64,000 nt of DNA, taken from an uncultured Oscillospiraceae bacterium (GTDB lineage: Bacteria > Bacillota > Clostridia > Oscillospirales > Oscillospiraceae). Location of the stretch: NCBI GenBank assembly GCA_944387035.1, contig CALXDJ010000008.1, forward strand, positions 1-64,000, given 5' to 3'. Shown one piece after another: positions 18,939 to 54,386 of this stretch (within the stretch, counting starts at the first letter, position 1; every line of letters starts with the position of its first letter). A program made the position numbers and the translations under genes. A model generated the notes under the pieces. The model searched no databases, was not told the DNA's origin, and was given only the letters and a program-made list of their open reading frames with translations.

Positions 18939-18968
18939 GTCATAATGGCGGCCCGCCCGGCATAGAGT
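18939..18968 (+). promoter_or_regulatory. sigma-E-like promoter of sipL-like gene
   Basis: GTCATAAT (18939-18946), 14-nt spacer, CATAGAGT (18961-18968). The sporulation sigma-E consensus is about KMATATT-N14-15-CATACAnT. The -10 octamer and the spacing are identical to those before spoIVA. Confidence 0.75.
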
Positions 18969-19009
18969 GTGGCATGGATGATACAGCCGGGAAAGGAAGG
19001 GCCTCGAAG

Positions 19010-20548
19010 ATGGAACTGGAATTGAAAAAAACAAGCCTGGACGCCTATGAGACAGGCGGAGAACTGACACTAACCCAGGAGGAAACTGCGGAGACGATTG
19101 TACCGGACTATCTGCCGGATATCGCCCGGATCATTGAAACAGAAGGGCGGGTCTTCCTCCACAGCCGGGAACTGCGGGATGGGAAGGCGGAAGTATCCGG
19201 AACGGTGCGGGTCACGGTCCTCTACACGCCGGAAGGGGAGGGCGGTATTCGGACATTGGATTTTTCCATCCCCTTTACGGTTGAGAGCGACAGCCGGGCT
19301 CTGCCGGGCTGCCAGTACTTAGGCGCACAGACCCAGACAGAATTTCTGGAGACCAGAACACTCAACCCGCGCAAAATCTTCACGCACTGCAAGCTGGTGA
19401 CGGTGCTGACCGGATATCAGAAGAGTACCTTGTGTGTGTGCACGGATGCGGAGGCGGAGCCGGCACTGTGCGTGGAAAAGCGCCAGGAGCACCAGCACGC
19501 TGTACTCCTGACCCATATCGCGGAAAAGGACTTCACCTATTCCGGAGAGATGAATCTTTCACCAGGCCGGGATGGAGCGGTGGAACTGCTGGGCAATCGG
19601 GTCAGCGCTGCGGTATCGGAGGCAAAGATTGTAGGCAGCAAGCTGATTTTCAAAGGGGTATTCCATATTACCGTGCTTTACCGCACCGGCTCCAGTCTGT
19701 GCTGTTCGTCTTCGGCGGAACTGCCGTTCTCCCAGATCATGGAGGTAGAGGGCGCGGCGGAAGATCACACCGCGGATGTCCAGATTCAGCTGACCGGCAC
19801 GGATTTGCAGCTGGACAGCGATGACGACGAGGGCCGTCAGATTGCCGTAACACTCTACTTCCATGCCACGGCATTGCTGCGGCAGCAACAGGAGCTGACT
19901 TTGCTGGGAGACCTGTATTCCACTGCCTACGATATGAGTTATGAGGCTGTGCCGGTAAGTCTGACCGGTTTTATGGAGACCATGACCCGGCGGCAGACGG
20001 TACGGGAGGTCTTGGAAATCGGCGTAGAGGCGGAGTCTGTTTTGACGGTGTCTGTATGCTGCGGCGGCGTGCAGGTCAATCGGGAAGGGGAGAATGTGAC
20101 ATTGCGCACCGGCGCCACAGTTCGGGTTCTCTACCAGGATGAAGGCGGCACTCCGCTGGTGGCGGAGCGCTGTCTGGACGTATCCTGTCAGGTGGAGCTG
20201 CCGGAAAGCTGCAAAGTGACGGCCCGGGCGGTCTGCACCGAGGAGGTGCAGACCGGTATCGGGGACCGGGGCATCGAGGTGCGCTTCCCGGTGGACTTTT
20301 GCATCGAGGCCGCAACCCGGACCAAGCGGGTGTGCATCTCCAGCGCCCGGGTCGATACCGACAGTCCCCGGGACATGACGGGAAAGCCGTCCCTGGTTTT
20401 GCGGTGCCTGGGCAAACAGGAGAGTGCCTGGGACCTGGCCAAGGCGTGCAACACCACCATCCGGGATCTGCTCTCAGCCAATCAGCTGGAAAGCGAAGAG
20501 GCAATTCCCAGAGAGAAGCTGCTGCTGATCCCTCGGAAGCGGGCATAA
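19010..20548 (+). CDS. sipL: SipL-like spore coat morphogenetic protein (DUF3794 + LysM)
   Basis: A 512-residue protein with repeated DUF3794/SPOCS-type beta modules through residues ~1-450 and a C-terminal LysM domain (~465-509, with SAWDLAKACNTTIRDLLSAN). This architecture matches Clostridioides difficile SipL, whose LysM domain binds SpoIVA to build the coat base. The ATG at 19010 has AAAGGAAGG 9 nt upstream and sits 41 nt after a sigma-E-like promoter; an in-frame ATG at 18974 is less well placed. spoVM lies just upstream and spoIVA downstream. The gene name is by architecture. Confidence 0.85.
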   Translation: MELELKKTSLDAYETGGELTLTQEETAETIVPDYLPDIARIIETEGRVFLHSRELRDGKAEVSGTVRVTVLYTPEGEGGIRTLDFSIPFTVESDSRALPGCQYLGAQTQTEFLETRTLNPRKIFTHCKLVTVLTGYQKSTLCVCTDAEAEPALCVEKRQEHQHAVLLTHIAEKDFTYSGEMNLSPGRDGAVELLGNRVSAAVSEAKIVGSKLIFKGVFHITVLYRTGSSLCCSSSAELPFSQIMEVEGAAEDHTADVQIQLTGTDLQLDSDDDEGRQIAVTLYFHATALLRQQQELTLLGDLYSTAYDMSYEAVPVSLTGFMETMTRRQTVREVLEIGVEAESVLTVSVCCGGVQVNREGENVTLRTGATVRVLYQDEGGTPLVAERCLDVSCQVELPESCKVTARAVCTEEVQTGIGDRGIEVRFPVDFCIEAATRTKRVCISSARVDTDSPRDMTGKPSLVLRCLGKQESAWDLAKACNTTIRDLLSANQLESEEAIPREKLLLIPRKRA

Positions 20549-20575
20549 GCCGCATCCAGCCCGACAAACAATAAG

Positions 20576-20614
20576 AATGCCCCGGCAGATCAGAAGAGAT
20601 CTGCCGGGGCATGG
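20576..20614. terminator. hairpin between convergent sipL and ABC transporter genes
   Basis: A perfect 15-bp inverted repeat (20576-20590 with 20597-20611; arm ATGCCCCGGCAGATC) with a 6-nt loop. T-rich flanks are weak on both sides, but the position between convergent genes fits a shared terminator. Confidence 0.75.
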
Positions 20615-20631
20615 TTTTGCTGAAAATCCGT

Positions 20632-21417
20632 TTAGTTCTGGGCGTAGCGGGAGAGGAACTGCCGGGTGCGCTCCTCCCGGGGATGCTCGATGACCTGGTG
20701 GGGATCGCCCTGTTCCACGATGACGCCGCCGTCCATAAAAATCACCTGATCCGCCACATCCCGGGCGAAGGCCATCTCATGGGTGACGATGATCATGGTG
20801 GTCCGCTGCTCCGCCAGAGAGCGGATGACCTTGAGCACCTCGCCGGTGAGCTCCGGGTCCAGGGCGGAGGTGGGTTCGTCGAAGCACAAGATATCCGGAT
20901 GCAGCGCCAGAGCGCGGGCAATGGCCACCCGCTGCTGCTGGCCGCCGGAGAGCTGGTGGGGATAGTGATTGGCCCGGTCGGAAAGCCCCATTTTCCCGAG
21001 CAGCTCCCGGCCTTCTGCCTGGATTTCCTCCAGAATGGCCTTTTTGTTCGCCTTGAAGTCCGGCCGCTCCTGACTGAGCAGTTCCTTGGCCAGGGTGACA
21101 TTTTTCAGCGCGGTGTATTGGGGGAAGAGATTGAAGGACTGGAACACCATGCCGAAGTGAAGCCGCTTGCGGCGCACCTCATTTTCTCTCTGCGTGGCGG
21201 GATCGGCGGCATCAAAGAGGGTCTCCCCCTGCACGCAGATGGTGCCGCTGTCCGGCGTTTCCAGAAAGTTCAGGCAGCGCAGAAGGGTGGTCTTTCCGGA
21301 GCCGGAGGAACCGATGATGGACAGCGCCTGGCCTTTTTCCAGTGAGAAGCTGATATCCTCCAGAACCTTGGTGGCGCCAAAATGCTTTTCAATATGCTGC
21401 ACTTCCAAAATTGCCAT
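20632..21417 (-). CDS. polar amino acid ABC transporter, ATP-binding protein
   Basis: A 261-residue ABC ATPase of the GlnQ/HisP type: Walker [10 protein letters not shown], signature LSGGQQQR, Walker [15 protein letters not shown]. It powers import by the adjacent permease and binding protein. RBS GGAGGGAACG lies before the ATG and 15 nt separate it from the permease gene. Substrate specificity cannot be read from this subunit. Confidence 0.93.
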
Positions 21418-21432
21418 GATGTCGTTCCCTCC

Positions 21433-22206
21433 TTACTGAAAGAATGCCAGCTTCTGCTCCAGCTTGCCCAGGAGCACGGTGACCACACCGCTGAAGACCA
21501 GATAATAAATTGCCGTAAAGAACAGGGGCCAGGTGAGACCGGCAATGCCGGAATTTCCCTTCATAAAGGATTCGCCCATCCAGATGACCTCCTGCAGGGC
21601 GATGACCCGGGCCAGGGAGGTGTCCTTGACCAGGGTGATGATTTCGTTGGACATGGGAGGCACGATGCGCTTGATCATCTGCACCAGGGTGATGTGGCGG
21701 AAGATCTGGGACTTGGTCATGCCCAGCACCTGACCGGCCTCTCTCTGGCCGGTGGGCACACCCTGGATGCCGCCCCGGTAGATCTCGGAGAAGTAGCAGG
21801 CATAGTTGATGATGAAGGCCACGCAGACCGCCATCATCCGGCCGGCTTCGCCGCTGGGCCAGTTGAACCATTTCTGGATTCCCGGCACGTAGAACAACGC
21901 GATGATCTGCAGAACCAGCGGGGTGCCCCGAATGATCCATACCATCAGACGGCAGACCAGCCGGATGGGCTGGAAGGCGATGAGCAGCTTGGCGATCTTG
22001 CCCGGTTCACGCTTGTTCCGCCGCAGGTACCAGTGCACCGGGCGGGACAGGGGCGCCAGGCGGCTCATGGAACCGAAGCTGATAATCAGACCCAACGGCA
22101 GGGCCCCGATCAGAGTGATGAAAAACAGCTGCAGGGTTTTCAAAAATCCGCTGTTCAGGGCGGACAAAACGGTCTGGAAGGTGGTGGAGGTGAAAAATTC
22201 CAACAT
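21433..22206 (-). CDS. amino acid ABC transporter permease
   Basis: A 257-residue permease of the HisMQ family with about five membrane helices and the EAA-loop motif (SQIFRHITLVQMIKRIVPPM). It forms the membrane channel with the ATPase encoded immediately downstream. It is separated from the binding-protein gene by 110 nt that contain a strong hairpin. Confidence 0.92.
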   Translation of the reverse strand: MLEFFTSTTFQTVLSALNSGFLKTLQLFFITLIGALPLGLIISFGSMSRLAPLSRPVHWYLRRNKREPGKIAKLLIAFQPIRLVCRLMVWIIRGTPLVLQIIALFYVPGIQKWFNWPSGEAGRMMAVCVAFIINYACYFSEIYRGGIQGVPTGQREAGQVLGMTKSQIFRHITLVQMIKRIVPPMSNEIITLVKDTSLARVIALQEVIWMGESFMKGNSGIAGLTWPLFFTAIYYLVFSGVVTVLLGKLEQKLAFFQ

Positions 22207-22247
22207 GGTATCGTCCTCTCAAGATGTATGTAGTGGAAGGTCAGTCG

Positions 22248-22290
22248 CGGAAAAGCAGAGCACGCTGTGGAGGCGCGCTCTGCTTTTCCG
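22248..22290 (-). terminator. hairpin between binding-protein and permease genes
   Basis: A perfect 14-bp inverted repeat (22248-22261 with 22277-22290, arm CGGAAAAGCAGAGC) with a 15-nt loop that can extend the stem. No long T tract follows in the minus direction. It is positioned to protect or partly terminate the binding-protein mRNA, as in many ABC operons. Confidence 0.6.
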
Positions 22291-22316
22291 AATGTCGGGA
22301 TTGCGGGGAAGGGGAA

Positions 22317-23198
22317 TTACTCCAGAATCACAGCATCCTGAAGGCCGTAGGTGGTAGCCGTCTCCAGCACGGTGCCGTCGGCGACTTTCTCCGCCCAGAA
22401 GGAGTTGAAGGTATCCACCAGGTCGGACCCCTGCCGGAAGCCGACGCCGTACTCCTCGGAAGGCAGGCCCTGGGTATCGTTGAGGTTGAGGCTGTATGCA
22501 AGATCGGCGTAGCTGGTGCCCTCGCCGGTCATCTCGGCAGCCATCAGAACGTCGATGACGGCGGCATCGGACGTGCCGGCGGAAACCTCCATCAGGGCGT
22601 TGGCCTGCGCCTGCACGGGCACGGTGGTGGCGCCCAGGGCCTCGGCGGCATCCTCACCGGCGGAGCCGGATTCCACGGCGATATTCAATCCTTCCAGGGA
22701 GGTCAGGCCCTCAAAGTCCGCAGCCTTGTCAGCAGGGTATACCAGGGTTTGATAGTTGGTGCAGTAGGGAGTGGAGGTGCCCATGGCGGCCAGAACATCC
22801 TCACTCAGGGTCATGCCGTTCCACACGCAGTCAATGGCCCGGGAGTTGAGCTCTTCCACCTTATAGTCCCAGGTGATCTCCTGGAACTCCACATTCACGC
22901 CAAGGCTTTCGGCGAAGGCCTTGGCCATGTCGGCGTCAAAGCCGATCCACTCGTCGCTGCCTTCTTCCTTATAGTCCAAGGGAGCAAAGTAGGTGATGCC
23001 GACCACCAGCGTGCCCTTGTCCTGGACGTAGGCCAGGTCGCTTTCGCTTCCTGTGTTGTCGGCCGGCTCCTCCGTGGTCTGGCCGGCAGTATCGTCCGCC
23101 GGCTCCTCCGTGGTGTCGCTGCCGCCGCAGGCGGCCAGGGAAGCTGTCATGGCCAGGGCCAGTACCAAAGCCAGAATCGTTTTCAGTCTTTTCATCAT
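22317..23198 (-). CDS. amino acid ABC transporter substrate-binding lipoprotein
   Basis: A 293-residue SBP_bac_3 family lipoprotein. Its signal peptide (MMKRLKTILALVLALAM) ends in the lipobox LAAC with lipidated Cys at residue 24, then an acidic Thr/Glu-rich linker. The binding fold starts at VQDKGTLVVGITYFAPLDY. The ATG at 23198 is chosen because GGAGG is 6 nt upstream; the ATG at 23204 touches the SD. It is the first gene of a three-gene uptake operon lying between sipL and spoIVA. Confidence 0.92.
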   Translation of the reverse strand: MMKRLKTILALVLALAMTASLAACGGSDTTEEPADDTAGQTTEEPADNTGSESDLAYVQDKGTLVVGITYFAPLDYKEEGSDEWIGFDADMAKAFAESLGVNVEFQEITWDYKVEELNSRAIDCVWNGMTLSEDVLAAMGTSTPYCTNYQTLVYPADKAADFEGLTSLEGLNIAVESGSAGEDAAEALGATTVPVQAQANALMEVSAGTSDAAVIDVLMAAEMTGEGTSYADLAYSLNLNDTQGLPSEEYGVGFRQGSDLVDTFNSFWAEKVADGTVLETATTYGLQDAVILE

Positions 23199-23277: not shown

Positions 23278-23349
23278 TGCAAAAACATGCTCAAATAGCG
23301 AAAAAAATTCGAGCTTGTTTTGTGGAAATGGAACAAAAATAGACGGGCC

Positions 23350-23379
23350 GTCATACTTTGCCGGCGGCAGACATAGAGT
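23350..23379 (+). promoter_or_regulatory. sigma-E-like promoter of spoIVA
   Basis: GTCATACT (23350-23357), 14-nt spacer, CATAGAGT (23372-23379), 38 nt before the spoIVA ATG. Its -10 box and spacing are identical to those of the sipL promoter. Confidence 0.8.
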
Positions 23380-23417: not shown

Positions 23418-24893
23418 ATGAATACCACGATCTATCAGAATATCGCCACCCGCACCGCGGGGGATATCTACATTGGCGTGGTGGGACCGGTACGCACCGG
23501 AAAATCCACCTTTATCAAACGGTTCATGGAGACGCAGGTCATTCCCAACATCGAGAATGTCTACCGCCGGGAACGGGCCCGGGATGAGCTGCCCCAGAGC
23601 GGTTCCGGCCGGACCATCATGACTGCCGAGCCCAAGTTCGTACCGGAGGAAGCGGCGCAGATCCAGCTGGAGGGCGGGGCGGCATTTTCCGTGCGGCTGA
23701 TCGACTGCGTGGGCTATATGGTCCGGGGGGCCATCGGGCAGTACGAGGATGATGCGCCCCGCATGGTCACCACACCCTGGTACGACCACGAGATCCCCAT
23801 GACGGAGGCGGCGGAGATCGGCACCCGAAAGGTCATTGCCGAGCACTCCACCATCGGCGTGGTCATCACCACCGACGGCACCATCTCCGATATTCCCCGG
23901 GAGGACTATCTGGAGGCGGAGGAGCGGGTCATCCGGGAACTGCAGGAGCTGGGAAAGCCCTTCATCGTGCTGCTCAATTCCGCCGATCCCAAAGGAGAGC
24001 GGGCCGGGGCCATCGCCCGGGACATCACCTCCCGCTATGAGGTCAACTGCATGGCGGTAAACTGTCTGGAGCTGGACGAGGACGCGGTGGGAGAGATTCT
24101 CAAGGCCGTGCTCTATGAGTTCCCCATGCAGGAGCTGGACCTGTTCCTGCCGCCCTGGGTGGACGCTTTGCCGGCGGACCATCCCATCAAGGCGGGACTG
24201 TACGAAGCCGTGCGCCAGGGGACCGATCAGCTGCATCACATCCGGGAGATCAACGGTGTTATTGCCTCTCTGGGTGAGTGTGAAAACATCAGTGAGGCCA
24301 AGATTACCTCCATTGACCTGGGCACCGGCATTGCCGCCGCCACTCTGGTACTGCCCCGGGAACTGTTCTATCATACGCTTTCGGAACAGTCGGGATTCTC
24401 CGTGGCCGACGACGGCGATCTCATGAGTCTTTTGACCCGGCTGGCAGCCGTCAAGGCGGAGTACGACAAGGTGGCCGGCGCATTGAAGGATGTCCGGGAG
24501 ACGGGATACGGCATCGTAGTGCCCGGCATCGACGAGCTGAAGCTGGAAGAGCCGGAGATCATGAAGCAGGGCGGACGCTACGGCGTCCGGCTCAAGGCCA
24601 GCGCCCCCAGTATCCATATGATCCGGGCAGACATCGAGACGGCGGTTTCGCCCATTGTAGGCAACGAAAAGCAGTCGGAAGATATGGTGAACTATCTGCT
24701 CCAGGAGTTCGAGGGGGATACCAGCAAGATCTGGCAGTCCAATATCTTCGGCCGCAGCTTCCATGAGCTGGTCAGCGAGGATCTGCAGGCAAAGCTCAAG
24801 CGGATGCCTGACGATGCCCGGAAAAAACTCCAGGAAACCCTCACCCGCATCATCAACGAGGGCAGCGGCGGTTTGATCTGCATCATTTTATAA
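23418..24893 (+). CDS. spoIVA: stage IV sporulation protein A
   Basis: A 491-residue SpoIVA (492 in B. subtilis), a cytoskeletal ATPase that polymerises on the forespore surface as the coat basement layer, recruited by SpoVM. The N-terminal P-loop GPVRTGKS is at residues 23-30, with a DCVGYMV switch region near residue 95. The C-terminus is hydrophobic and conserved (GSGGLICIIL), as needed for SpoVM contact. The ATG at 23418 follows AAGGACGGG. Confidence 0.97.
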   Translation: MNTTIYQNIATRTAGDIYIGVVGPVRTGKSTFIKRFMETQVIPNIENVYRRERARDELPQSGSGRTIMTAEPKFVPEEAAQIQLEGGAAFSVRLIDCVGYMVRGAIGQYEDDAPRMVTTPWYDHEIPMTEAAEIGTRKVIAEHSTIGVVITTDGTISDIPREDYLEAEERVIRELQELGKPFIVLLNSADPKGERAGAIARDITSRYEVNCMAVNCLELDEDAVGEILKAVLYEFPMQELDLFLPPWVDALPADHPIKAGLYEAVRQGTDQLHHIREINGVIASLGECENISEAKITSIDLGTGIAAATLVLPRELFYHTLSEQSGFSVADDGDLMSLLTRLAAVKAEYDKVAGALKDVRETGYGIVVPGIDELKLEEPEIMKQGGRYGVRLKASAPSIHMIRADIETAVSPIVGNEKQSEDMVNYLLQEFEGDTSKIWQSNIFGRSFHELVSEDLQAKLKRMPDDARKKLQETLTRIINEGSGGLICIIL

Positions 24894-28944: not shown

Positions 28945-28974
28945 CGCATGGTTTTCGGTCCGGATGCATAGGGT
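28945..28974 (+). promoter_or_regulatory. sigma-E-like promoter of the amidase-domain gene
   Basis: A CATAGGGT -10 (28967-28974) with a weaker -35 CGCATGGT (28945-28952) 14 nt away. It has the same geometry as the sipL and spoIVA promoters. Confidence 0.5.
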
Positions 28975-29002: not shown

Positions 29003-29506
29003 ATGCGTGTTTTTCAAGACTATAACCGTGCTGCTGCGGTGGCCTATGCCCACGCCTGGGCTTACCGGCGCAATCCACGGTACTATAATTATGAGGAGTT
29101 GGGTGGGGACTGCACCAATTTTGCGTCCCAGTGTCTTTATGCCGGCAGCGGCATCATGAACTTCACGCCCACCTGGGGCTGGTACTACCTGGATGCCGAC
29201 CGCAAGGCACCGGCCTGGACGGGAGTACAGTATCTCTGGAATTTTTTGACCCGCACCCGGCAGTCCGTAGGGCCGGTGGGGGAAGCCTGTGCTCTGGAAG
29301 ATCTCCAGCCCGGCGATCTGGTGCAGCTCTCTTTTGACGGGACGACCTTTGGCCATACGCCCTTTGTCATTGCGGTGGAGCAGCCCGTTTCCCCCCAGAC
29401 AGTTTTCGTTGCCGCCCATACCCAGGACGCCGACTACCGGCCGCTGTCCACCTACGTCTACCAAAGTCTGCGCTGCCTGCGGATTACCGGCGTCGTACGG
29501 CCCTGA
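29003..29506 (+). CDS. putative amidase domain protein (Amidase_6)
   Basis: A 167-residue protein with the GGDCTNFASQ signature of the Amidase_6 putative cysteine amidase family, related to NlpC-like papain folds. The Cys is in DCTNF and a candidate His is in FGHTPFVIA. There is no signal peptide. The ATG at 29003 has AAAGGAGGAGG upstream and a sigma-E-like promoter 28 nt before it, so a mother-cell sporulation role is plausible. An SLH-GH18 gene follows. Substrate unknown. Confidence 0.8.
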   Translation: MRVFQDYNRAAAVAYAHAWAYRRNPRYYNYEELGGDCTNFASQCLYAGSGIMNFTPTWGWYYLDADRKAPAWTGVQYLWNFLTRTRQSVGPVGEACALEDLQPGDLVQLSFDGTTFGHTPFVIAVEQPVSPQTVFVAAHTQDADYRPLSTYVYQSLRCLRITGVVRP

Positions 29507-32650: not shown

Positions 32651-32872
32651 ATGAGTTTGATTCCCTGTACCAGTGCGTGTGTGTATCAGAGCGACGGCGT
32701 GTGTACGCTGGAAAGTGCCGCAGCCGCCGGGATGCCGTCACTGGGCGGCGCCTGCGTGCACTTCATTCCCGCGGACGCAGCGCGGCTCGGATCGCCTCAC
32801 CGATATTGCGGACCGCAAGGAGCTCCATGTCTCCAAATGCCCGGGCGTCCAGAGCCCGGTGCGCCGGAATGA
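32651..32872 (+). CDS. small Cys-rich protein overlapping radA 3' end
   Basis: A 73-residue peptide beginning MSLIPCTSACVYQSDGVCTL, with Cys at 6, 10, 18 and 35 spaced C-x3-C-x7-C-x16-C and a CVHFIP segment. This resembles short Cys-rich clostridial proteins often mislabelled hydroxymyristoyl-ACP dehydratase (from memory). The recognisable part is residues 1-40; the last ~37 residues are antisense to radA and may be read-through. No good SD is visible. It could bind a metal or Fe-S cluster. Confidence 0.45.
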   Translation: MSLIPCTSACVYQSDGVCTLESAAAAGMPSLGGACVHFIPADAARLGSPHRYCGPQGAPCLQMPGRPEPGAPE

Positions 32873-34142
32873 CGCAGCGCCGGAATCCCAGGCGCTGGGC
32901 CTCCCGAATCCGCAGCGGCAGCTGACTGACGGTACGCAGCTCGCCGGTCAGACCCACCTCTCCAATGGCCACCAGATCACCGGGCACCGGACGGTCCAGA
33001 TAACTGGATGCCAGGGCCACCACTGCCGCCAGATCCGCTGCGGGCTCGTCCAGCCACAGTCCGCCGATGATGTTCAAATAGGCGTCGCAGGCGGAGACCT
33101 TCAGTCCTCCCCGTTTCTCCAGCACCGCCAGCAGCATGGCCGCCCGGTTATAGTCAAAGCCGTTGCTGGTGCGCCGGGGATTGCCGCCGGAGGCTGTGGT
33201 CACCACCAGGGCCTGGACCTCCGCCAGCACCGGCCGGGCCCCTTCCATCACGCAGGCCACACAGGTGCCCGGGGCGTCGTCCGGCCGGCCGGAGAGCAGC
33301 ATTTGAGAGGGATTCTCCACCTCCGCCAAGCCCTCGTCCTGCATCTCAAAGACGCCGATTTCGTTGGTGGCGCCGAAGCGGTTCTTGGCGGCCCGGAGAA
33401 TCCGGTAGGACGTATGGCGGTCTCCCTCAAAGTAGAGCACACAGTCCACCATGTGCTCCAGAACCTTGGGGCCGGCAATGGACCCCTCCTTATTGACGTG
33501 ACCGATGACAAACACCGTGATCCCCTGCCCTTTTGCCAGCTGCATCAGGGCCATGGTGCACTCCTTGACCTGGGAGATGCTTCCCGCCGGAGACTCCAGG
33601 GCGGGATTGTACAGCGTCTGAATCGAATCCACGATGACCACATCCGGCGTCTCCAGCCGGATCGAATCCAGCATGTCCTCCAGACTGGTCTCGGAGATTA
33701 CCAGCAGATTGGGACTGTCCACATGCAGCCGCCGGGCCCGCAGCTTGAGCTGGTGTTCCGATTCCTCACCGGATACATACAATACCCGGGAAAATTCACA
33801 CAATTTGCTGCAAATCTGCAACATCAGCGTGGATTTGCCAATGCCCGGCGCGCCGCCTACCAGCACCAGCGAGCCCTTCACCGCGCCGCCGCCCAGCACC
33901 CGGTCCAGCTCCCCCATCCCGGTGGGGAAACGGATTTCCTCGTCGCTGGTCAGCTCCGTCACCGGGCAGGCCCGCCGGACGCCGCCCGGTGCTGCCGGAC
34001 GAGCCCGGCTGCCTTTGGAAGCTGTCTTCTCTGCGGGCTGCTCCACAATCGTGTTCCACGCGCCGCAGGCGGGGCACCGCCCCGCCCACTTCGGCATCTC
34101 ATTGCCGCATTCCGTACAGTAAAAAAGCGTCTTTTGCTTCAT
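32763..34142 (-). CDS. radA: DNA repair protein RadA
   Basis: A 459-residue RadA/Sms, a RecA-like helicase promoting branch migration in recombination. The N-terminal zinc finger is CTECGNEMPKWAGRCPACG, the P-loop is GGAPGIGKST, the KNRFG motif is present, and a Lon-protease-like C-terminal domain (~280-455) lacks the protease dyad by family knowledge. RBS GGAGAGG lies 8 nt before the ATG. It is co-transcribed with cwlD, whose stop overlaps the radA start by 4 nt. Confidence 0.96.
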   Translation of the reverse strand: MKQKTLFYCTECGNEMPKWAGRCPACGAWNTIVEQPAEKTASKGSRARPAAPGGVRRACPVTELTSDEEIRFPTGMGELDRVLGGGAVKGSLVLVGGAPGIGKSTLMLQICSKLCEFSRVLYVSGEESEHQLKLRARRLHVDSPNLLVISETSLEDMLDSIRLETPDVVIVDSIQTLYNPALESPAGSISQVKECTMALMQLAKGQGITVFVIGHVNKEGSIAGPKVLEHMVDCVLYFEGDRHTSYRILRAAKNRFGATNEIGVFEMQDEGLAEVENPSQMLLSGRPDDAPGTCVACVMEGARPVLAEVQALVVTTASGGNPRRTSNGFDYNRAAMLLAVLEKRGGLKVSACDAYLNIIGGLWLDEPAADLAAVVALASSYLDRPVPGDLVAIGEVGLTGELRTVSQLPLRIREAQRLGFRRCVIPAHRALDARAFGDMELLAVRNIGEAIRAALRPRE

Positions 34143-34870
34143 GTTGGTTCCTCTCCATACAGGCCCGCCAGCAGCCCCGCCGTCATGGCGGCGGCCAGTC
34201 TGCGCTGGTAGGAATCGTCCTGCAGGCGGGTGGTCTCCGCCTCATTGGACAAAAATCCGCACTCCACCAGCACTCCCGGTGCCTGGGCATTTTTCATGAG
34301 ATACACGGACGAGCCCATAGCCTTGGCTTCCTTGGGCCGCTCCGAATTGATGGCGGTATTCAGCGCGGCCTGTACCGCCTCCGCCAAAGCCTGCGCTCCC
34401 TCCTGCCCATTCCAGAACGCCTGGGCCCCATGGGTTTGGGGCGACGAAGGCAGACTGTTTTGATGGATGCTCAGCAGCACCCCATGCTCCGCGGCGTTGA
34501 CGATGGCAACCCGGTTGCGCAGATCTGAGGATTTCTTCTCCCGGATGGTATTGGCACCGTCACTGTGGATGGAACGGTCATCCTCCCGGGTCATAACCGT
34601 TTTCTGGCCGCAAAAGCGCAGCAGGTCGTTGACCCGCAGGCCAAGCTCCAGATTGATCTGGCTTTCCTCTACACCGCCGGACGAAACCGCACCGCCGTCC
34701 TCACCGCCGTGGCCCGGGTCCACAACCACGGTCACCGGCGTTTCCCCCTGAGGAGCAAACACCGTTGTGTCCGCCGGAGCGCTTCGCCATAGAAAGACCG
34801 CCGCAAGAACCACGCAGCACACGCCGATTGCCGCCCGGCGCAGCGTTGACATCCGAATTGAGATGAACAC
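34139..34870 (-). CDS. cwlD: germination-specific N-acetylmuramoyl-L-alanine amidase CwlD
   Basis: A 243-residue Amidase_3 enzyme with an N-terminal signal anchor (AAIGVCCVVLAAVFLW). Zinc ligands and catalytic Glu are visible in VDPGHGGEDGGA, LSIHQNS and VECGFLSN. CwlD cleaves stem peptides so that muramic-delta-lactam forms in spore cortex. A GTG start at 34870 fits GGGGGTG upstream and a sigma-E start site near 34882; ATG 34852 is the alternative. Family choice (CwlD over other amidases) rests on length, single anchor and the sporulation promoter. Confidence 0.85.
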   Translation of the reverse strand: MFISIRMSTLRRAAIGVCCVVLAAVFLWRSAPADTTVFAPQGETPVTVVVDPGHGGEDGGAVSSGGVEESQINLELGLRVNDLLRFCGQKTVMTREDDRSIHSDGANTIREKKSSDLRNRVAIVNAAEHGVLLSIHQNSLPSSPQTHGAQAFWNGQEGAQALAEAVQAALNTAINSERPKEAKAMGSSVYLMKNAQAPGVLVECGFLSNEAETTRLQDDSYQRRLAAAMTAGLLAGLYGEEPT

Positions 34871-34889
34871 AGGCAACACCCCCGCCAAA

Positions 34890-34919
34890 ACCCTATGTAG
34901 CGGGGCTCATCCCATATGC
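34890..34919 (-). promoter_or_regulatory. sigma-E-like promoter of cwlD
   Basis: Minus strand GCATATGG (34912-34919), 14-nt spacer, CATAGGGT (34890-34897). In B. subtilis cwlD is under sigma-E and sigma-G control, in agreement. Confidence 0.75.
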
Positions 34920-34923: not shown

Positions 34924-34952
34924 ATTATACCGTCTCCCCTCCGGAAAATCAA
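34924..34952 (-). promoter_or_regulatory. sigma-A promoter upstream of cwlD-radA
   Basis: Minus strand TTGATT (34947-34952), 17-nt spacer, perfect TATAAT (34924-34929). It would give vegetative expression of radA, complementing the sporulation promoter just downstream. Confidence 0.65.
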
Positions 34953-34979: not shown

Positions 34980-34987
34980 CATATACT
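34980..34987 (+). promoter_or_regulatory. sporulation-sigma -10-like box before cotJ
   Basis: CATATACT fits the CATAnAnT -10 of sigma-E/sigma-K. No good -35 is seen at 14 nt. A perfect 9-bp inverted repeat GGATTGGGC / GCCCAATCC (34988-34996 and 35013-35021) follows it. Confidence 0.35.
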
Positions 34988-35047: not shown

Positions 35048-35506
35048 ATGGAGACCAAACAAACCACATCCGCCGCTTCCTGCGGCAGCGGGCAGGGCTC
35101 CCTGCCCGGCAGCTGCGGCTCGCTGGCGTTTCCCTACGTGCCCATGCAGGGAACCGATCCGGTGCGGTACAGCCGGATGGAAGCCCTGCAGACCGGCACT
35201 CTCTTCCCGGGTCTGGATCTGCCCTTCAAAGAGGCCATCCAGGCCAAAACCAAGCTGGCCAACACGGCCCTGGTGGAACTGATGGCCCTGGATTTTGCCA
35301 TTGACGAACTGGGACTGTATCTGGTCACCCATTCCCAGGATCAAGAGGCTCTGCAGCTCTACTGGTCCTATATCAATCTGGCCAAGGAGGGCCGCGAGAA
35401 GTATCAGAAGCTCTACGGGCCCCTGCTGCAGACAGACCTGACCCCGGATGAGGGCTTCGCCTGGCTCAAAGATCCCTGGCCCTGGGACGAAGGAGGAAAC
35501 AGCTGA
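35048..35506 (+). CDS. cotJB: CotJA-CotJB fusion spore coat protein
   Basis: A 152-residue protein. Residues ~28-65 (FPYVPMQG ... ALQTGTLFPGLDLPF) match the CotJA pattern. Residues ~72-147 (ALVELMALDFAIDELGLYL to WLKDPWPWDEGG) match CotJB. In Bacillus these are separate genes cotJA and cotJB; here both lie in one uninterrupted frame, whose length equals the sum of the two. The N-terminal 27 residues are Ser/Gly/Cys-rich. AAGGAGG lies 14 nt before the ATG, a long spacing. cotJC overlaps by 1 nt. Confidence 0.85.
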   Translation: METKQTTSAASCGSGQGSLPGSCGSLAFPYVPMQGTDPVRYSRMEALQTGTLFPGLDLPFKEAIQAKTKLANTALVELMALDFAIDELGLYLVTHSQDQEALQLYWSYINLAKEGREKYQKLYGPLLQTDLTPDEGFAWLKDPWPWDEGGNS

Positions 35507-36247: not shown

Positions 36248-38239
<1,992 letters not shown>

Positions 38240-38944
38240 TTATCCGTTGTTGAGTATATAGTCCTTCAGGTCCTCCTCGTAGGTCTCCGGTGACGTGCTG
38301 AAATACGTGTACGTATCCGGAACCGTCCCTACGATGATGGTTTCCGCCACCGTGACAGCATTGGAGATCTTGGTGGCGGTGGTGAAGCCCGGCAGCAGAA
38401 TGCTGACGGTCACATCGATATTCAGGATGATTTGGTGTTTGGTCTGATTGATGCCCGCCGAGGAGAAGGCGTTTTCAAACCGGGCCGAGGACGACCCCAC
38501 CGACTCCATCCGGACATTGATCCGGGGCCCGCGGCCCGCCAGCAGAGCGGTACCGGTGAGCGTCCCCACAGGAATGGAGATCTCCCGGGCGGAAACCTGA
38601 TCCACCCGGGTCAAAATGATATCCAGAATATCGGTTTGCAGGCGGTTGAAGGCCGCCATATTACTGTGGACCGCAGTCACACGGCCCTCCGTATCCTTTT
38701 CGAAGGATATGAGCTGTTCATAGCTGATATCGCCCTGCTGAATCGCCTCATCCACGGCCTCGGCCACAATGCGGTTGACGGTGTTGGATACCCGGGTCAC
38801 CGCCAGACTTTCCAACAGAGGCCGCAGCTGTGCCGTGGCATAGAGAATGACAAACAACACCAGCGAGATCAAAAACAGCAACAGGATCCGTACCGCCGCC
38901 CGCCGGTCCATCCGGCGGCGGTAATAGAAAAAGCCTGGTCGCAC
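38240..38944 (-). CDS. yunB: sporulation protein YunB
   Basis: A 234-residue YunB homologue. A basic N-terminus (YYRRRMDRRAAVR) leads to one membrane anchor (ILLLFLISLVLFVILYATA, ~20-39) and an extracytoplasmic domain ending DTYTYFSTSPETY. YunB is a sigma-E-dependent protein needed for normal sporulation, exact role unknown. A GTG start follows a strong GGAGGGAGG. A sigma-E-like promoter sits 20 nt upstream, immediately after the murD stop. Confidence 0.92.
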   Translation of the reverse strand: MRPGFFYYRRRMDRRAAVRILLLFLISLVLFVILYATAQLRPLLESLAVTRVSNTVNRIVAEAVDEAIQQGDISYEQLISFEKDTEGRVTAVHSNMAAFNRLQTDILDIILTRVDQVSAREISIPVGTLTGTALLAGRGPRINVRMESVGSSSARFENAFSSAGINQTKHQIILNIDVTVSILLPGFTTATKISNAVTVAETIIVGTVPDTYTYFSTSPETYEEDLKDYILNNG

Positions 38945-38964: not shown

Positions 38965-38994
38965 ATTCTATGCGGAAGGAGCCTGGACTTATTG
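38965..38994 (-). promoter_or_regulatory. sigma-E-like promoter of yunB
   Basis: Minus strand CAATAAGT (38987-38994), 14-nt spacer, CATAGAAT (38965-38972). The -10 matches CATAnAnT fully. It straddles the end of murD. Confidence 0.65.
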
Positions 38995-44686: not shown

Positions 44687-45325
44687 TCAGCGCTTGCTGA
44701 GATCGCCGGAAAGAAGCTGCCGTGCCACCTTGCGCCGAATGCGCTGCACAGCGTTGTCCACGGACTTTGGGGGTTTGCCGACCGTTCCGGCAATTTCCCT
44801 GCATGAAAGACCGTCTAAATAATACCCCAATATCTCCGCTTCAAAATCGGACAACTGTTTCCGGACTCCGGACAAGAGGGCCGCCGTGTGCTCGCGGTCG
44901 ATGAGAAAATCTTCCGGATTGCACTGAGCCAGACTGCTGGTACCAGAGGTGTAGGAATTGCTGTCAAGGTAAGGCGTATCCAAAGGGACCGACTGATTGA
45001 GCGGTGAATGCTTACCGCGCCCTGCGGCACGGAGAACGGAATACAGTCGGCTGCGAATGCAGATTTCCGCGAATGTTCGGAAGGACGCTTCCTTTTCCGC
45101 GTCATACTCCCGGACTGCTTTGATGAGTCCCACCATTCCCTCTTGGGTCAGGTCCTCGCTGTCGCCGCCGATCAAAAAGAACGGACGGGCACAGGTACGT
45201 ACCAGCCTCTGATATCGGGTGACCAGGATCTCCTCCGCCTCACGGCGGCCTTCCGCCGCCAAACGGCACAGAGTCTCATCGGAAAGATCTTCCTGGATTT
45301 GGGTGTTCTCATAAGACTTTCGCAT
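44687..45325 (-). CDS. sigH: RNA polymerase sporulation sigma factor SigH
   Basis: A 212-residue SigH (Spo0H), the transition-state sigma factor that feeds into spo0A and early sporulation. Region 2 (FLIGGDSEDLTQEGMVGLIKA, close to the Bacillus FLIGADREDIVQEGM) and region 4 (LDGLSCREIAGTVGKPPKSV) are clear. No SD precedes the ATG, and the -10 box of a consensus promoter lies only 7 nt upstream, so the mRNA may be leaderless. Confidence 0.94.
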   Translation of the reverse strand: MRKSYENTQIQEDLSDETLCRLAAEGRREAEEILVTRYQRLVRTCARPFFLIGGDSEDLTQEGMVGLIKAVREYDAEKEASFRTFAEICIRSRLYSVLRAAGRGKHSPLNQSVPLDTPYLDSNSYTSGTSSLAQCNPEDFLIDREHTAALLSGVRKQLSDFEAEILGYYLDGLSCREIAGTVGKPPKSVDNAVQRIRRKVARQLLSGDLSKR

Positions 45326-49970: not shown

Positions 49971-50480
49971 TTACACCGTTTCTTTGACGTCGCTGGTCTG
50001 GGGAAGCCGGGAGGTCCGGCTCCGGGCGTGGCACAGTGCCAGGGCCAGAGCGTCCGCCGCGTCGTCGGGCCGGGGCACCGACGCAAGGCCCAGAAGGCGC
50101 CGGGTCATGTCCATGACCTGCCGTTTTTCCGCCTTGCCGTATCCCACCACCGCCAGCTTCACCTGAGAGGGCGTGTACTCATAAAGCGGCACGCCGCACT
50201 TTTCCGCCGCGCACAAAATGACGCCCCGGCCATGGGCCACGGCGATACCGGTGGTGATGTTGGTATTGAAGAACAGCTCCTCAATGGAGATGACGTCGGG
50301 CTTGAGCTTACCGATCAGCTCCTCCATGTCGCAGCTGATCTGATAGAGCCGCCGGGACAGCGGCAGCCCGGCGGGCGTGGTGATGGCCCCATAGGTCACC
50401 ATATGCACCCGCCCCCGCTCCGCCGTAATGAGGCCGAAGCCGATGGTGGCAAAGCCCGGATCGATTCCCAAGATACGCAT
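49971..50480 (-). CDS. ruvC: Holliday junction resolvase RuvC
   Basis: A 169-residue RuvC endonuclease with the RNase H-like fold. Acidic metal ligands are visible: D in MRILGIDPGFATIGFG, E in SIEELFFNTN and the DDAADALALAL motif near the C-terminus. The ATG at 50480 follows CTGGAGGG. It is the first gene of the ruvC-ruvA-unknown-ruvB operon. Confidence 0.96.
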   Translation of the reverse strand: MRILGIDPGFATIGFGLITAERGRVHMVTYGAITTPAGLPLSRRLYQISCDMEELIGKLKPDVISIEELFFNTNITTGIAVAHGRGVILCAAEKCGVPLYEYTPSQVKLAVVGYGKAEKRQVMDMTRRLLGLASVPRPDDAADALALALCHARSRTSRLPQTSDVKETV

Positions 50481-50511
50481 GGCGCTTTCCCTCCAGTTTA
50501 CATTCCGTACC

Positions 50512-50540
50512 AGTATACCAAATCCCGTCCCAAAGCGCAA
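50512..50540 (-). promoter_or_regulatory. promoter of ruvC
   Basis: Minus strand TTGCGC (50535-50540), 17-nt spacer, TATACT (50512-50517). Confidence 0.55.
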
Positions 50541-50692
50541 CAGAAAAAGCGCGGCGGACCGTCTGCGTACTGCGGACACCGCGCGGTGGACTGCGCGGCA
50601 CACAAACCAGCAAAACGACCCACCGGCAGCCCGGCTGAGCCAGCGGCACAAAACCGCGCAGGCGCGGCGGCGAAACGGAGGGAACCCCGGCG

Positions 50693-50729
50693 CAAAAAAG
50701 CCGGGGCCGCCTTTCGAGGCGGTCCCGGC
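50693..50729 (-). terminator. terminator after DUF4179 anti-sigma gene
   Basis: A minus-strand 12-bp stem GCCGGGACCGCC / GGCGGCCCCGGC with one mismatch, followed by T6. Confidence 0.88.
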
Positions 50730-50789
50730 GGGGATGGTTGCAATGTGTTCCGCCGCGGCGGACGTGGAACTTCCGGGCGTACGGCATCT

Positions 50790-52151
50790 TCAGACGATGG
50801 GGATCACCACAGGGACAGGCTCCTGAGAGGTGTGGGAGTACTGGGCCTCCAGCCACACCTCGTCGTCCGTGTAGTCCGGCAGGGGCATCATCAGCTCCGA
50901 CTTTCCGCCCTCCAGGTGGGTGCTCATGCCCATCTGGCGCATTTCGCAGGCGTTGCCCTCCCGGTCATAGAAGGTCATGGCAAAGGGCGTGGACAAAAAC
51001 CCATCGTCCACCAGGCAGGTGATGACCCAGCCCTTGGCCTCCTTCTGGACGCGCTGGAGGGTCACGCCCTCCGGCATCCACTCGGCGCTGCCCGCCGCCA
51101 GGTCAATGTGCACCCGCTCATGGGCCTTTTCCAGCCACCGGGCGCCGGTGATGTGCAGCGTCAGGGAGTCGCAGCGGGCGAAGTACGGGCTCTCCAGCCG
51201 GTAGGAGACCATGGCCGGCGTGTCGGTGTCTCCGCTGGCGATGACGCCGTTGGAGATGGAGCCGAAGCGCTGCCCGTCCTCGTTTTCCAGACAGAAGTCC
51301 AGCCCCTTGAGCCAGGCGGTGTTGTCCCCGTCCCCCTCCACGTTCACCCGCACATGAGTGGGATAGATCTCCACGTCCGTGACGGTGAGGGTCTGGCCGT
51401 CCAGAGTGAACGTCTCATTCACCGCCACATGGCGGCCCGGGGCGGTATCCGCCGGATCAAAGCGCAGATCGAAGGTAAACGTGGCCAGCACGGCGTCCGG
51501 GGCGTGGTCCGGCGGGGTCAGCAGGTCCTCCTCCAGGGAGCTGATGGCGGCGGGAGCCTGGGCTTCCTCTCTGTCCGCCCGCTCTCCGGTGACGGAGAAG
51601 GTCATGGAAAAGGTCTCCGGCACGTCCTCGTCTCCGTAGTCCAGGGCGAAGCGCAGCATGGTTCCGGGGCTTTGCCGGAAATCCGCTCCCAGGATGGAAC
51701 ATGCCTGATGGGGAGAAAACTCCGGCATCTCGGCGGAGAGGCTCTCGTACCCCTCCCCCTCCAGGGTGAAGAACAGATTCACCTGCTTTTGGTCCACGAT
51801 GACATAGTGGACCGTGGCGGTAATGCCGTTTACCGTCTTACTTTGCTCGATAGGCTGGACATAGGCGTTTTCCACCGCGGCCGAGAGGCTGGGCGACCAC
51901 GCCACGGCCTTGGCCAGCTCCCGCAGTACCGGCACGCCGCCGCAGGCGTAGGCAAAGGTGGGGAACAGATTCACCAGCAACACAAAGCCCGCAAAGCAGG
52001 CCGCCAGAGTCCCGGCCGGGATGCCCAGAATCCGGCGCCGGCGGCGCCGGGCCCGGAGCCGGGCCTGCGCCCGCTCCACACATCCGTCCAGAGCCGCGGG
52101 GGTGGACTCCAGCTCCCGCAGCAGGGATTCATACTCCGTATTCCGGTTCAT
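50790..52151 (-). CDS. DUF4179 membrane protein, probable anti-sigma factor
   Basis: A 453-residue protein: an N-terminal cytosolic segment (~1-42, with basic run RARRRRRR), one membrane helix (IPAGTLAACFAGFVLLVNLF, ~43-64), then a DUF4179 domain and a further C-terminal beta-rich extracytoplasmic part. It overlaps the ECF sigma gene by 4 nt. The pairing and topology match anti-sigma factors that hold an ECF sigma at the membrane until an envelope signal. The signal is unknown. Confidence 0.88.
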   Translation of the reverse strand: MNRNTEYESLLRELESTPAALDGCVERAQARLRARRRRRRILGIPAGTLAACFAGFVLLVNLFPTFAYACGGVPVLRELAKAVAWSPSLSAAVENAYVQPIEQSKTVNGITATVHYVIVDQKQVNLFFTLEGEGYESLSAEMPEFSPHQACSILGADFRQSPGTMLRFALDYGDEDVPETFSMTFSVTGERADREEAQAPAAISSLEEDLLTPPDHAPDAVLATFTFDLRFDPADTAPGRHVAVNETFTLDGQTLTVTDVEIYPTHVRVNVEGDGDNTAWLKGLDFCLENEDGQRFGSISNGVIASGDTDTPAMVSYRLESPYFARCDSLTLHITGARWLEKAHERVHIDLAAGSAEWMPEGVTLQRVQKEAKGWVITCLVDDGFLSTPFAMTFYDREGNACEMRQMGMSTHLEGGKSELMMPLPDYTDDEVWLEAQYSHTSQEPVPVVIPIV

Positions 52152-52627
52152 GCGCCATCCTCCTCTCCCAGCTCCAGCCGCAGCAGGGCCAGAGCCTTCC
52201 GCTGCCGGGTGGCCACGGTCCCCTGTGGAATGCCCAGGGCCTGGGCCGTCTCCGATTGGGTGTACCCGGTGAAAAACCGCAGGATCACCACCGCCCGCAA
52301 TTCCTCGGGCAGCCGCCCCACCGCCTCCCGCAGGGGCAGGCCGTCATAGGCGTCCGGTCCGGCGGTGTCCGGCAGGGCGTCCTGACCGCCGGGGTGAAAC
52401 CGATTCCGGCGGCGCAGCTCCCGGTGGCAGGTATTGAGCAGGATCCGGGTCAGCCACGTCTCGAAAAAGGCCGCCTCCCGCAGCTGTCCCAAGGCCCGCA
52501 GGGCCTGGTAGACGGCCTCGTCCACGGCCTCCAGGGCATCGGCCTCCCGGCCCAGGTACAAATACGCCGTGCGGTAGAGCGTCTGCCGCATGGCCTGCGT
52601 CCGGCGGGCAAATTCCTCTTGATTCAT
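52148..52627 (-). CDS. ECF-type RNA polymerase sigma factor
   Basis: A 159-residue sigma-70 family factor with only regions 2 and 4. Region 2: EAVDEAVYQALRALGQLR ... FFETWLTRILLNTCHREL. Region 4: LPEELRAVVILRFFTGYTQSETAQALG, then GIPQGTVATRQRKAL. It resembles SigV/SigW-type envelope-stress sigmas. Directly followed by its DUF4179 anti-sigma partner. RBS AAAGGAGGGGG. Possible self-controlled promoter at 52658-52689. Confidence 0.93.
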   Translation of the reverse strand: MNQEEFARRTQAMRQTLYRTAYLYLGREADALEAVDEAVYQALRALGQLREAAFFETWLTRILLNTCHRELRRRNRFHPGGQDALPDTAGPDAYDGLPLREAVGRLPEELRAVVILRFFTGYTQSETAQALGIPQGTVATRQRKALALLRLELGEEDGA

Positions 52628-52657
52628 CTCTGGCCCCCTCCTTTCCTCGTTCTACCC

Positions 52658-52689
52658 ATTAGAGCCTGCAGGGGCGGCGTTTGTTTTCC
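52658..52689 (-). promoter_or_regulatory. possible ECF-type autoregulatory promoter
   Basis: Minus strand GGAAAAC (52683-52689) and CTCTAAT (52658-52664), 18 nt apart, faintly like TGAAAC / CGTCTA ECF promoters, in the right place for autoregulation of the sigma gene. Weak match. Confidence 0.25.
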
Positions 52690-52712
52690 GGCGGTGAAGA
52701 AAATTTTCCGGG

Positions 52713-52741
52713 CAAAAAAAGGGCACGGCCAAAGCCGTGCC
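52713..52741 (-). terminator. terminator after xerD
   Basis: A minus-strand 8-bp GGCACGGC / GCCGTGCC stem followed by a T7 run. Confidence 0.9.
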
Positions 52742-52788
52742 GAAAACACAACACTTACCATGCCGCCCGTGGAGCGGCGGGAGGTCCG

Positions 52789-53676
52789 TCAGGCCCGGGG
52801 ATGGGCCTTTTGATAGACGTCCTTGAGCTGGTGCTTGATGACATGGGTATAAATCTGGGTGGAGGAAATGTCCGCGTGGCCCAGCATCTCCTGAATGGAG
52901 CGCAGGTCCGCGCCGTTTTCCAGAAGATGAACGGCAAAGGAGTGGCGCAGGGTGTGGGGGGTGATGTCCTTTTCAATGCCCGCCCGCTCCTGGTAGTACT
53001 TGATGATCTTCCAGAATCCCTGGCGGCTCATCCGCTCACCGCTCATATTGACGAACAGGGCCGTCTCCTCACTGTCGGCAATGAGCTGGGGACGAATGGT
53101 ACGCACATAATCGGACAATGCCTTGACCGCCGTGTGGTACAGCGGGATCATCCGCTCCTTGCCCCGGTTGGCGCAGCGCAGGAAGCCTGCCGCCAGATTC
53201 AGGTCCTCCAGATTCAAAGAGATCAGCTCGCTGACCCGGATGCCGGTGGCGTAGAGCAGCTCCAGCATGGCGTGGTCCCGGTACCCCTTGGCGTCCACAC
53301 ACTGGGGCTGCTCCAAAAACAGCTCCACTTCCTTGCTGGTGAGAATCTCCGGATACCGCCGCTCCACCTTGGCCGCCGCCACACCCCGGGCGGGGTTGAC
53401 CGTGAGGATCTGCTCCGACACCAGGAAGTTGTAAAAGGACTTCACCGACGCCAGATACCGCGTTACCGACGCCGCCGACTTTCCCCGGGAGAGCATCCCG
53501 TTCATGTACTCGGTGACCATGGCGTTGTCCGCCTCCCGCAGGGTGCAGTGATGGTCGGTCTGCAGGTATGTCTCAAACTGCTTCACATCCCGCAGATAGG
53601 ACGTAACGGTATTTTGAGAAGCGTGCTTCTCCCCTGTGAGGTACGCGCCGTAGCGCTCCAGATCGCTTGCCGGCAA
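52789..53676 (-). CDS. xerD: tyrosine recombinase XerD
   Basis: A 295-residue tyrosine recombinase (296 in B. subtilis) resolving chromosome dimers at dif with XerC. Catalytic residues: Arg in ATGIRVSELISL, HxxR in HTLRHSFAVHLL, His in LGHADISS and Tyr in TQIYTHV. A TTG start at 53676 is supported by GAGAGGAGGGG five nt upstream; codons further upstream belong to spoIIM. It follows spoIIM by 26 nt; spoIIM and xerD are also near each other in Bacillus. Confidence 0.95.
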   Translation of the reverse strand: MPASDLERYGAYLTGEKHASQNTVTSYLRDVKQFETYLQTDHHCTLREADNAMVTEYMNGMLSRGKSAASVTRYLASVKSFYNFLVSEQILTVNPARGVAAAKVERRYPEILTSKEVELFLEQPQCVDAKGYRDHAMLELLYATGIRVSELISLNLEDLNLAAGFLRCANRGKERMIPLYHTAVKALSDYVRTIRPQLIADSEETALFVNMSGERMSRQGFWKIIKYYQERAGIEKDITPHTLRHSFAVHLLENGADLRSIQEMLGHADISSTQIYTHVIKHQLKDVYQKAHPRA

Positions 53677-53702
53677 GCAGACCCCTCCTCTCTTTTCTCT
53701 AT

Positions 53703-54338
53703 CTAAATCACCGCCCGCTCCAGTGCCAGTGTCAGCAGCCGGGGCGAAAGAAGCAATTCCACACACAATCCCACTGTCAGCGCCGCCAGAACAATGCCCA
53801 GACGAATCCAGCAGCGCCTGCCGTAAACAACCGGCGCCGTATGGCGTCCCCTCCCAAAGGATGCCCGGGCCAGCGCGGCAGACGTTTCCATGGACGCATC
53901 CGCCAGCAGGAAAAAGCAAGGCAGCGTCACGGCACAGCGCACACCCAGCACGGCCAGCGCCAGCACCACGCCGTCACCGCCAAAGGAAGCGGTAAAACAG
54001 CACACAGAAAACGACAGGAAAAACCCGAAGGCCAGCGCCGCGCAGGGCAGCAGCACCACCCCGATGGACGCAAATCCCAGGAAAAACGCCAGCAGCGGAT
54101 AACGGATGTACAGCACCAGTGCTGCCGGCAGGGCAGCGGCCGCGCCGCCGCTTTCTCCGCTCAAACTCAGATATCCCTCCAGATACTGCTTGAGCTCCGT
54201 ACCGGTCTCATCCGGTACCCACTCCAGCACGACCTGTCCCAAAACCACGCCCAATAAAAAGAAAAGCGCCAGGATCAGCAGCCGCCAGAGCGGGGAAGAT
54301 TGTCCCGGAGCAGGAATCCTTCGTTTTTTCCAGTTCAA
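53703..54338 (-). CDS. spoIIM: stage II sporulation protein M
   Basis: A 211-residue polytopic membrane protein with about five helices and a basic N-terminus (MNWKKRRIPAPGQSSP). SpoIIM is the scaffold of the SpoIID-SpoIIM-SpoIIP complex that thins septal peptidoglycan during engulfment. A TTG start at 54338 follows GAGGTGAG. A sigma-E-like promoter lies 18 nt upstream and xerD follows, both as expected. The SpoIID/LytB protein at 57893 is probably not its SpoIID partner. Confidence 0.9.
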   Translation of the reverse strand: MNWKKRRIPAPGQSSPLWRLLILALFFLLGVVLGQVVLEWVPDETGTELKQYLEGYLSLSGESGGAAAALPAALVLYIRYPLLAFFLGFASIGVVLLPCAALAFGFFLSFSVCCFTASFGGDGVVLALAVLGVRCAVTLPCFFLLADASMETSAALARASFGRGRHTAPVVYGRRCWIRLGIVLAALTVGLCVELLLSPRLLTLALERAVI

Positions 54339-54356
54339 ACCGTCTCACCTCGCTTC

Positions 54357-54386
54357 AGCCTATGAACACACACCGGGCTTGATGCG
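54357..54386 (-). promoter_or_regulatory. sigma-E-like promoter of spoIIM
   Basis: Minus strand CGCATCAA (54379-54386), 14-nt spacer, CATAGGCT (54357-54364). spoIIM is sigma-E-dependent in B. subtilis. Confidence 0.65.

Follow-up and report, generated by a model that had tools for sequence, protein, structure and literature searches.

Do the spore-type genes of an uncultured gut Oscillospiraceae bacterium share a promoter, and which sigma factor would read it? The question is raised by a 64,000-nucleotide (nt) stretch of DNA, called the window throughout (positions 1-64000 of one contig, CALXDJ010000008.1, of assembly GCA_944387035.1), in which six spore-type genes are each preceded by a short two-part element. 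We find that five of these genes, sipL, spoIVA, cwlD, yunB, and spoIIM, very probably carry a promoter of the type read by sigma-E, the early mother-cell factor. We infer this because the element is conserved in exact register among orthologs, because it recurs in the same register before spoIIIAA, spoIIID, and spoIIP, and because the genome has an intact sigE gene. A preliminary description had claimed sigma-E promoters before all six genes. The claim is supported for five, but not for the sixth, an Amidase_6 gene.

The source genome comprises 2.26 Mb in 67 contigs, with 60.6% G+C. The nearest relatives of the window SpoIVA (best 80 of 419) share 95-89% identity with it and belong to genomes whose titles read Oscillibacter, Dysosmobacter, or Oscillospiraceae. 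Gene calling used a codon model, and naming relied on Pfam and NCBIfam. The six genes are as follows:

19010..20548, forward strand: sipL (SipL domain PF12673, 88.6 bits, over the Pfam cut-off)
23418..24893, forward strand: spoIVA (TIGR02836, 705.7 bits)
29003..29506, forward strand: Amidase_6 gene (PF12671, 121 bits)
34139..34888, reverse strand: cwlD (TIGR02883, 193.4 bits, below the cut-off of 221.55; Amidase_3 over the Pfam cut-off)
38240..38944, reverse strand: yunB (TIGR02832, 149.5 bits, cut-off 111.9)
53703..54338, reverse strand: spoIIM (TIGR02831, 65.6 bits, below the cut-off of 100.2; PF01944 over the Pfam cut-off)

Ahead of them lie these predicted sites:

18940..18968, forward strand: sigma-E-type promoter of sipL, TCATAAT (18940-18946), 14 nt, CATAGAGT (18961-18968)
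23351..23379, forward strand: sigma-E-type promoter of spoIVA, TCATACT (23351-23357), 14 nt, CATAGAGT (23372-23379)
28946..28974, forward strand: promoter-like site of the Amidase_6 gene, GCATGGT (28946-28952), 14 nt, CATAGGGT (28967-28974)
34890..34919, reverse strand: sigma-E-type promoter of cwlD, GCATATG (34919-34913), 15 nt, CATAGGGT (34897-34890)
38965..38993, reverse strand: sigma-E-type promoter of yunB, AATAAGT (38993-38987), 14 nt, CATAGAAT (38972-38965); 17 nt when counted from the ATA core
54357..54385, reverse strand: degenerate sigma-E-type promoter of spoIIM, GCATCAA (54385-54379), 14 nt, CATAGGCT (54364-54357)

All six CATAGRNT octamers named in the preliminary description are present (first bases 18961+, 23372+, 28967+, 34897-, 38972-, and 54364-), and those of sipL and spoIVA are indeed identical, both being CATAGAGT. 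At every site, the CATA-type -10 lies close ahead of the gene start and is kept in orthologs. The spacer of "exactly 14 nt" is correct for sipL, spoIVA, Amidase_6, and spoIIM. That of cwlD is 15 nt, and for yunB 14 nt is obtained only by taking AATAAGT as the -35, which is one base off the register of the ATA core. Aligned on this core, sipL and spoIVA read ATA-N16-CATA, and cwlD and yunB read ATA-N17-CATA. The sites are therefore not fully the "matched set" that had been announced, since two spacers are one base longer. The window copies of spoIIM (ATC) and Amidase_6 (ATG) both lack ATA at the -35 core.

A weight matrix built outside the window recovers these sites. The training material consisted of sipL and spoIVA ortholog upstream regions from Oscillibacter-type loci of other genomes (80 spoIVA loci were used as input), and the window contributed none. 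Sites were taken where an ATA or ATA-like -35 stood in register, as it does in 50/58 spoIVA and 47/48 sipL upstream regions, giving 97 sites with an effective number of 34.7. Among the ~128,000 stranded positions scanned in the window, spoIVA ranks 1, sipL 2, yunB 5, cwlD 6, Amidase_6 10, and spoIIM 23.

The register itself is conserved. Across all loci, ATA-N16 precedes CATANNNT in 60/64 sipL upstream regions, and at spoIVA the -35 and -10 are kept among orthologs while the bases between them vary. Among same-genus orthologs (29 loci per gene, dropped if the upstream region was too short or the start uncertain), ATA-N16 is found in 19/21 for spoIIM, and ATA-N17 in 19/28 for cwlD and 18/25 for yunB. 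When each genus of the family is represented by a single genome, the signal for these three genes is less sharp than at genus level: cwlD has ATA-N16 in 11/29, yunB has ATA-N17 in 8/29, and spoIIM has TAA or TAT at a spacing of 15 in 11/24, with ATA-N16 in only 3/24 and ATA-N10 in 5/24. An ATA-core -35 at a fixed distance (N16 or N17) is the dominant register for sipL, spoIVA, cwlD, yunB, and spoIIM.

The source genome was scanned for CATA-N(6-26)-CATASRNT, with the reversed pattern as a control. Spacer 16 has 7 matches and spacer 17 has 3, with the remaining 22 shared among the other 19 spacers (Poisson for the peak at 16, P = 2.0e-4; 6.7e-3 without sipL and spoIVA). Gene context was read for the 30/32 matches that have a locus, 20 of them at spacers other than 16 and 17. 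Six of the seven spacer-16 matches lie 30-50 nt ahead of a called start, namely, that of sipL, spoIVA, spoIIIAA, spoIIID, a LysM-GH18 gene, and a PPIC-type gene; no gene follows the seventh. Of the three spacer-17 matches, one precedes cwlD, another a YlmC/YmxH-family gene (28 nt), and the third lies within a gene. Only 2 of the 20 examined at other spacers are near a start (triosephosphate isomerase and a nucleosidase), a significant difference from spacer 16 (Fisher, P = 6.1e-4; 5.5e-3 without sipL and spoIVA). The fifth -10 base, at which C or G was allowed, is G in all 7 spacer-16 matches (background, 12/22). When A, C, or T was allowed there instead, 31 matches were found (25 for the reversed control); spacers 16 and 17 account for 6 each, and nine further spacers for the other 19. 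Context was available for 20/31 of these, and four of the six spacer-16 matches had no locus; one of the remaining sites lies 29 nt before spoIIP, and another 113 nt before rimP. Thus, the element stands in register ahead of spoIIIAA, spoIIID, and spoIIP, further canonical sigma-E genes of this genome.

Could CATA-like words simply have been picked ahead of spore genes by chance? The octamer alone proves nothing, because its count in the window matches the order-1 Markov expectation: on both strands together there are 8 CATAGRNT octamers, with 7.3 ± 2.7 expected, and thus no over-representation. Genome-wide, the total for the two-part pattern (32) shows no excess over the reversed control (36). 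Octamer counting alone was therefore dropped as evidence. Several further points, like these counts, weigh against sigma-E promoters. Positions within genes or antisense hold matrix ranks 3, 4, and 7, ahead of several of the six sites. No site is found in 8/58 spoIVA upstream regions of Oscillibacter-type loci, and across all loci ATA-N16 precedes CATANNNT in only 47/79 for this gene. Same-genus cwlD orthologs also show ATA-N10 (14/28); this ATA belongs to a GGGATAAGC that is conserved within the spacer. The window spoIIM -35 is degenerate, the yunB ATA partly overlaps the stop codon of the preceding gene, and the ortholog rows are related rather than independent. For 7 of the 8 site-less spoIVA genes, the gene appears, as judged by eye from the sequence, to lie directly behind the end of sipL, and the sipL promoter could serve both. 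The placement of the octamers is unusual: for 6/8 the distance to a called start downstream is 20-100 nt, although only 4% of stranded positions fall in this range (binomial, P = 1.1e-7, post hoc). These belong to sipL, spoIVA, Amidase_6, yunB, spoIIM, and a non-spore, Se/S-carrier-like gene (113+); the cwlD -10 lies outside this range, only 9 nt ahead of the called TTG. The octamer at 113+ and another within a gene (9981-) take matrix ranks 132 and 254. It is only in how the spacers are distributed and in gene context that the genome-wide pattern exceeds the reversed control. The held-out ranks, the exact register kept while spacer sequences vary, and the spacing peak with its gene context all speak against chance, which we consider hardly credible. 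By held-out matrix, ortholog register, and genome scan, the bipartite element is non-random.

The second alternative is sigma-K, the later mother-cell factor, which also reads promoters with a CATA-type -10. All six sites might be of this kind, as the form of the -10 is compatible with either factor. However, the conserved -35 of sipL, spoIVA, cwlD, yunB, and spoIIM is ATA in a fixed register, not AC; spoIIIAA, spoIIID, and spoIIP likewise have the ATA core; and the sigK of the source genome is seen only as a C-terminal part (73363-73707) at the end of a contig. Sigma-K as the reader of the whole set is thus very improbable, even if one of the six fits it better. The Amidase_6 -10 is conserved in orthologs, but the -35 there is not of the sigma-E type, with ATA at spacers 15-17 in 0/29 same-genus orthologs and in 0/18 of another set that overlaps the first. 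These orthologs have AC-N17-CATANNNT in 12/29 and CAC-N17 in 8/29 (for AC, no other listed spacing exceeds 5). This resembles the AC -35 of a Clostridioides difficile sigma-K promoter, given with CATATAAT (PMC3789822), and the likeness counts in favor of sigma-K for the set as well as for this gene. The sigma-E promoter claimed for Amidase_6 is accordingly not supported: judging from these upstream sequences, sigma-K, alone or together with sigma-E, is the more likely reader of this gene. We somewhat favor an arrangement in which Amidase_6 alone is of the sigma-K type, or dual, and the other five are of the sigma-E type; it is compatible with sigma-E promoters before the five and splits the set. 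Not everything agrees with it, since AC-N17 is absent in 17/29 orthologs, the window copy has AT where orthologs have AC, and the held-out sigma-E matrix still places Amidase_6 10th.

Sigma-E promoters before the five genes are also consistent with known systems. In Bacillus subtilis, the sigma-E -10 is CATACANT, with C at the fifth base, and the -35 is KMATATT; here, the -35 is KCATAMT and the fifth -10 base is mostly G. C. difficile has sigma-E promoters mapped before spoIVA and sipL, cwlD under sigma-E, and spoIIID and spoIIIAA as further sigma-E genes; its spoIIID promoter is written ATA-N16-CATATATA, with the same ATA -35, 16 bases, and CATA -10 as found here (PMC3789822). The differences are the fifth -10 base, mostly G here, and the 60.6% G+C of the present genome. 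The B. subtilis sigma-E genes include cwlD, spoIVA, spoIIM, spoIIP, and the spoIIIA operon, and its sigma-E promoters are likewise two-part with a fixed spacer (their logo spacer is 12 ± 1, as against 15 ± 1 for sigma-K; PMC517825). Both yunB and ymxH are listed among Clostridium perfringens sporulation genes (PMC4433262).

RNA polymerase carrying sigma-E would thus recognize a KCATAMT -35 with its ATA core, 16 or 17 bases, and a CATA(G/C)RNT -10. The sites would fire in the mother cell, and downstream genes of the same transcription unit would be transcribed too. We regard the set as a sigma-E regulon of the usual kind, carried by an Oscillibacter-like genome: known biology in a little-studied gut group. 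In the open-licence literature, we found no paper on Oscillibacter sigma-E promoters or on the three gene pairs described below (one query required at least 4/6 gene names). Gut Oscillospiraceae are mostly uncultured. With a tested promoter model, sequence can be used to predict their mother-cell regulon, a help in deciding which members are capable of sporulation.

A total of 21 matches to Sigma70_r2 occur in the genome. The intact sigE gene scores 366.4 bits with TIGR02835 (cut-off 348.6). Of two SigG models, one assigns a match to that factor; another match comes closest to SigF but stays below the cut-off, and a SigH-like gene in the window (44687-45325) is also below the cut-off. The curated sigK cut-off was reached by 0/31 genomes and 0/14 control genomes. 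A near-full-length sigK stretch is present in 10/31 genomes, and in several same-genus genomes the gene appears split, as in genomes with a skin element. The parts lie on one contig, 22.6 kb (G085), 35.4 kb (G077), or 5.0 kb (G071) apart, or on separate contigs (G063, G080, and G083). There are two break points, at about query residues 73 and 117, and G080 has both. The source-genome part, on contig C11, begins at the contig end, at the second break point (~117).

Three of the five promoters would head pairs of spore and DNA-maintenance genes. In the window, these pairs are cwlD-radA (32763-34888), yunB-ligA (36248-38944), and spoIIM-xerD (52789-54338), all on the reverse strand. Their second genes, and two sigma-A-like promoters found by a consensus scan, are as follows:

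32763-34142, reverse strand: radA-like gene, after cwlD (Pfam domains)
36248-38227, reverse strand: NAD-dependent DNA ligase gene (ligA), after yunB (ligase domains)
52789-53676, reverse strand: xerD, after spoIIM (TIGR02225, 357.9 bits)
34924..34952, reverse strand: sigma-A-like promoter upstream of cwlD, TTGATT-N17-TATAAT
54417..54445, reverse strand: sigma-A-like promoter upstream of spoIIM, TTGATA-N17-TATGAT

The same-strand arrangement is conserved: cwlD is followed by a radA-like gene in 28/29 genus loci and 27/29 family loci, yunB by ligA in 28/29 and 24/29, and spoIIM by xerD in 26/29 and 24/25. The sigma-A-like sites of cwlD and spoIIM sit just upstream of the sigma-E-type ones, and these units are therefore probably expressed in growing cells too. 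Sigma-E may then add mother-cell transcription to DNA-maintenance genes. More broadly, we tentatively suggest, while regarding it as rather unlikely, that the sigma-E code of this family has drifted to mostly G at the fifth -10 base and that such promoters, arranged in tandem with others of the sigma-A-like kind, stand at the head of the conserved pairs cwlD-radA, yunB-ligA, and spoIIM-xerD. If true, the mother cell would make RadA, DNA ligase, and XerD within the sporulation program, possibly handling its own chromosome while engulfing the forespore, for example, in the excision of sigK-interrupting elements. The operon pattern offers a direct and cheap test of whether mother cells activate DNA-maintenance genes in sporulation.

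SpoIIID sites near these promoters are a lead. B. subtilis SpoIIID represses cwlD and spoIVA (PMC517825). Matches to at least 9/10 positions of a SpoIIID consensus, WWRRACARNY, exceed shuffled sequences at spoIVA (39/46 vs 24%) and spoIIM (13/20 vs 18%), with a weaker excess at yunB (12/25 vs 20%), cwlD (9/25 vs 20%), Amidase_6 (9/28 vs 15%), and sipL (16/44 vs 22%); these figures come from single-base shuffling and related rows. Directly ahead of the spoIVA -35, most Oscillibacter-type loci have a conserved AAGACGGGC(C/T)GT block (about 23335-23350 in the window). A regulator, for instance SpoIIID, may bind this block, although the best SpoIIID-like place in spoIVA upstream regions is not the AAGACGGGC block. 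The conserved GGGATAAGC of the cwlD spacer, seen in many same-genus orthologs, lies at 34898-34912 on the reverse strand of the window.

Some spoIVA leaders are long (L012, L014, L018, L030, L036, L051, L053, and L062), and these can fold back so that their start pairs with the ribosome-binding site. Folding of three gave z-scores of -3.7, -1.9, and -2.9, and an Rfam search of the leaders of seven loci returned no family match. The window spoIVA is without such a long folding leader.

A fused cotJA-cotJB gene (35048-35506), with a cotJC-like catalase gene behind it, is preceded by a sigma-K-like GGACCCC-N-CATATACT (34980-34987, forward strand). In C. difficile, a cotJB2-cotD operon is under sigma-K (PMC3789822). 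We tried cotJAB as a second sigma-K example, but AC-N17 occurs in only 3/26 same-genus orthologs, and it was hence left unused. Last, a SpoIID/LytB-domain gene (57893-59587, reverse strand, 564 amino acids; TIGR02669, 241.6 bits) carries CATACTTT at a distance of 44 nt from the called start, upstream of it; this site takes matrix rank 40.

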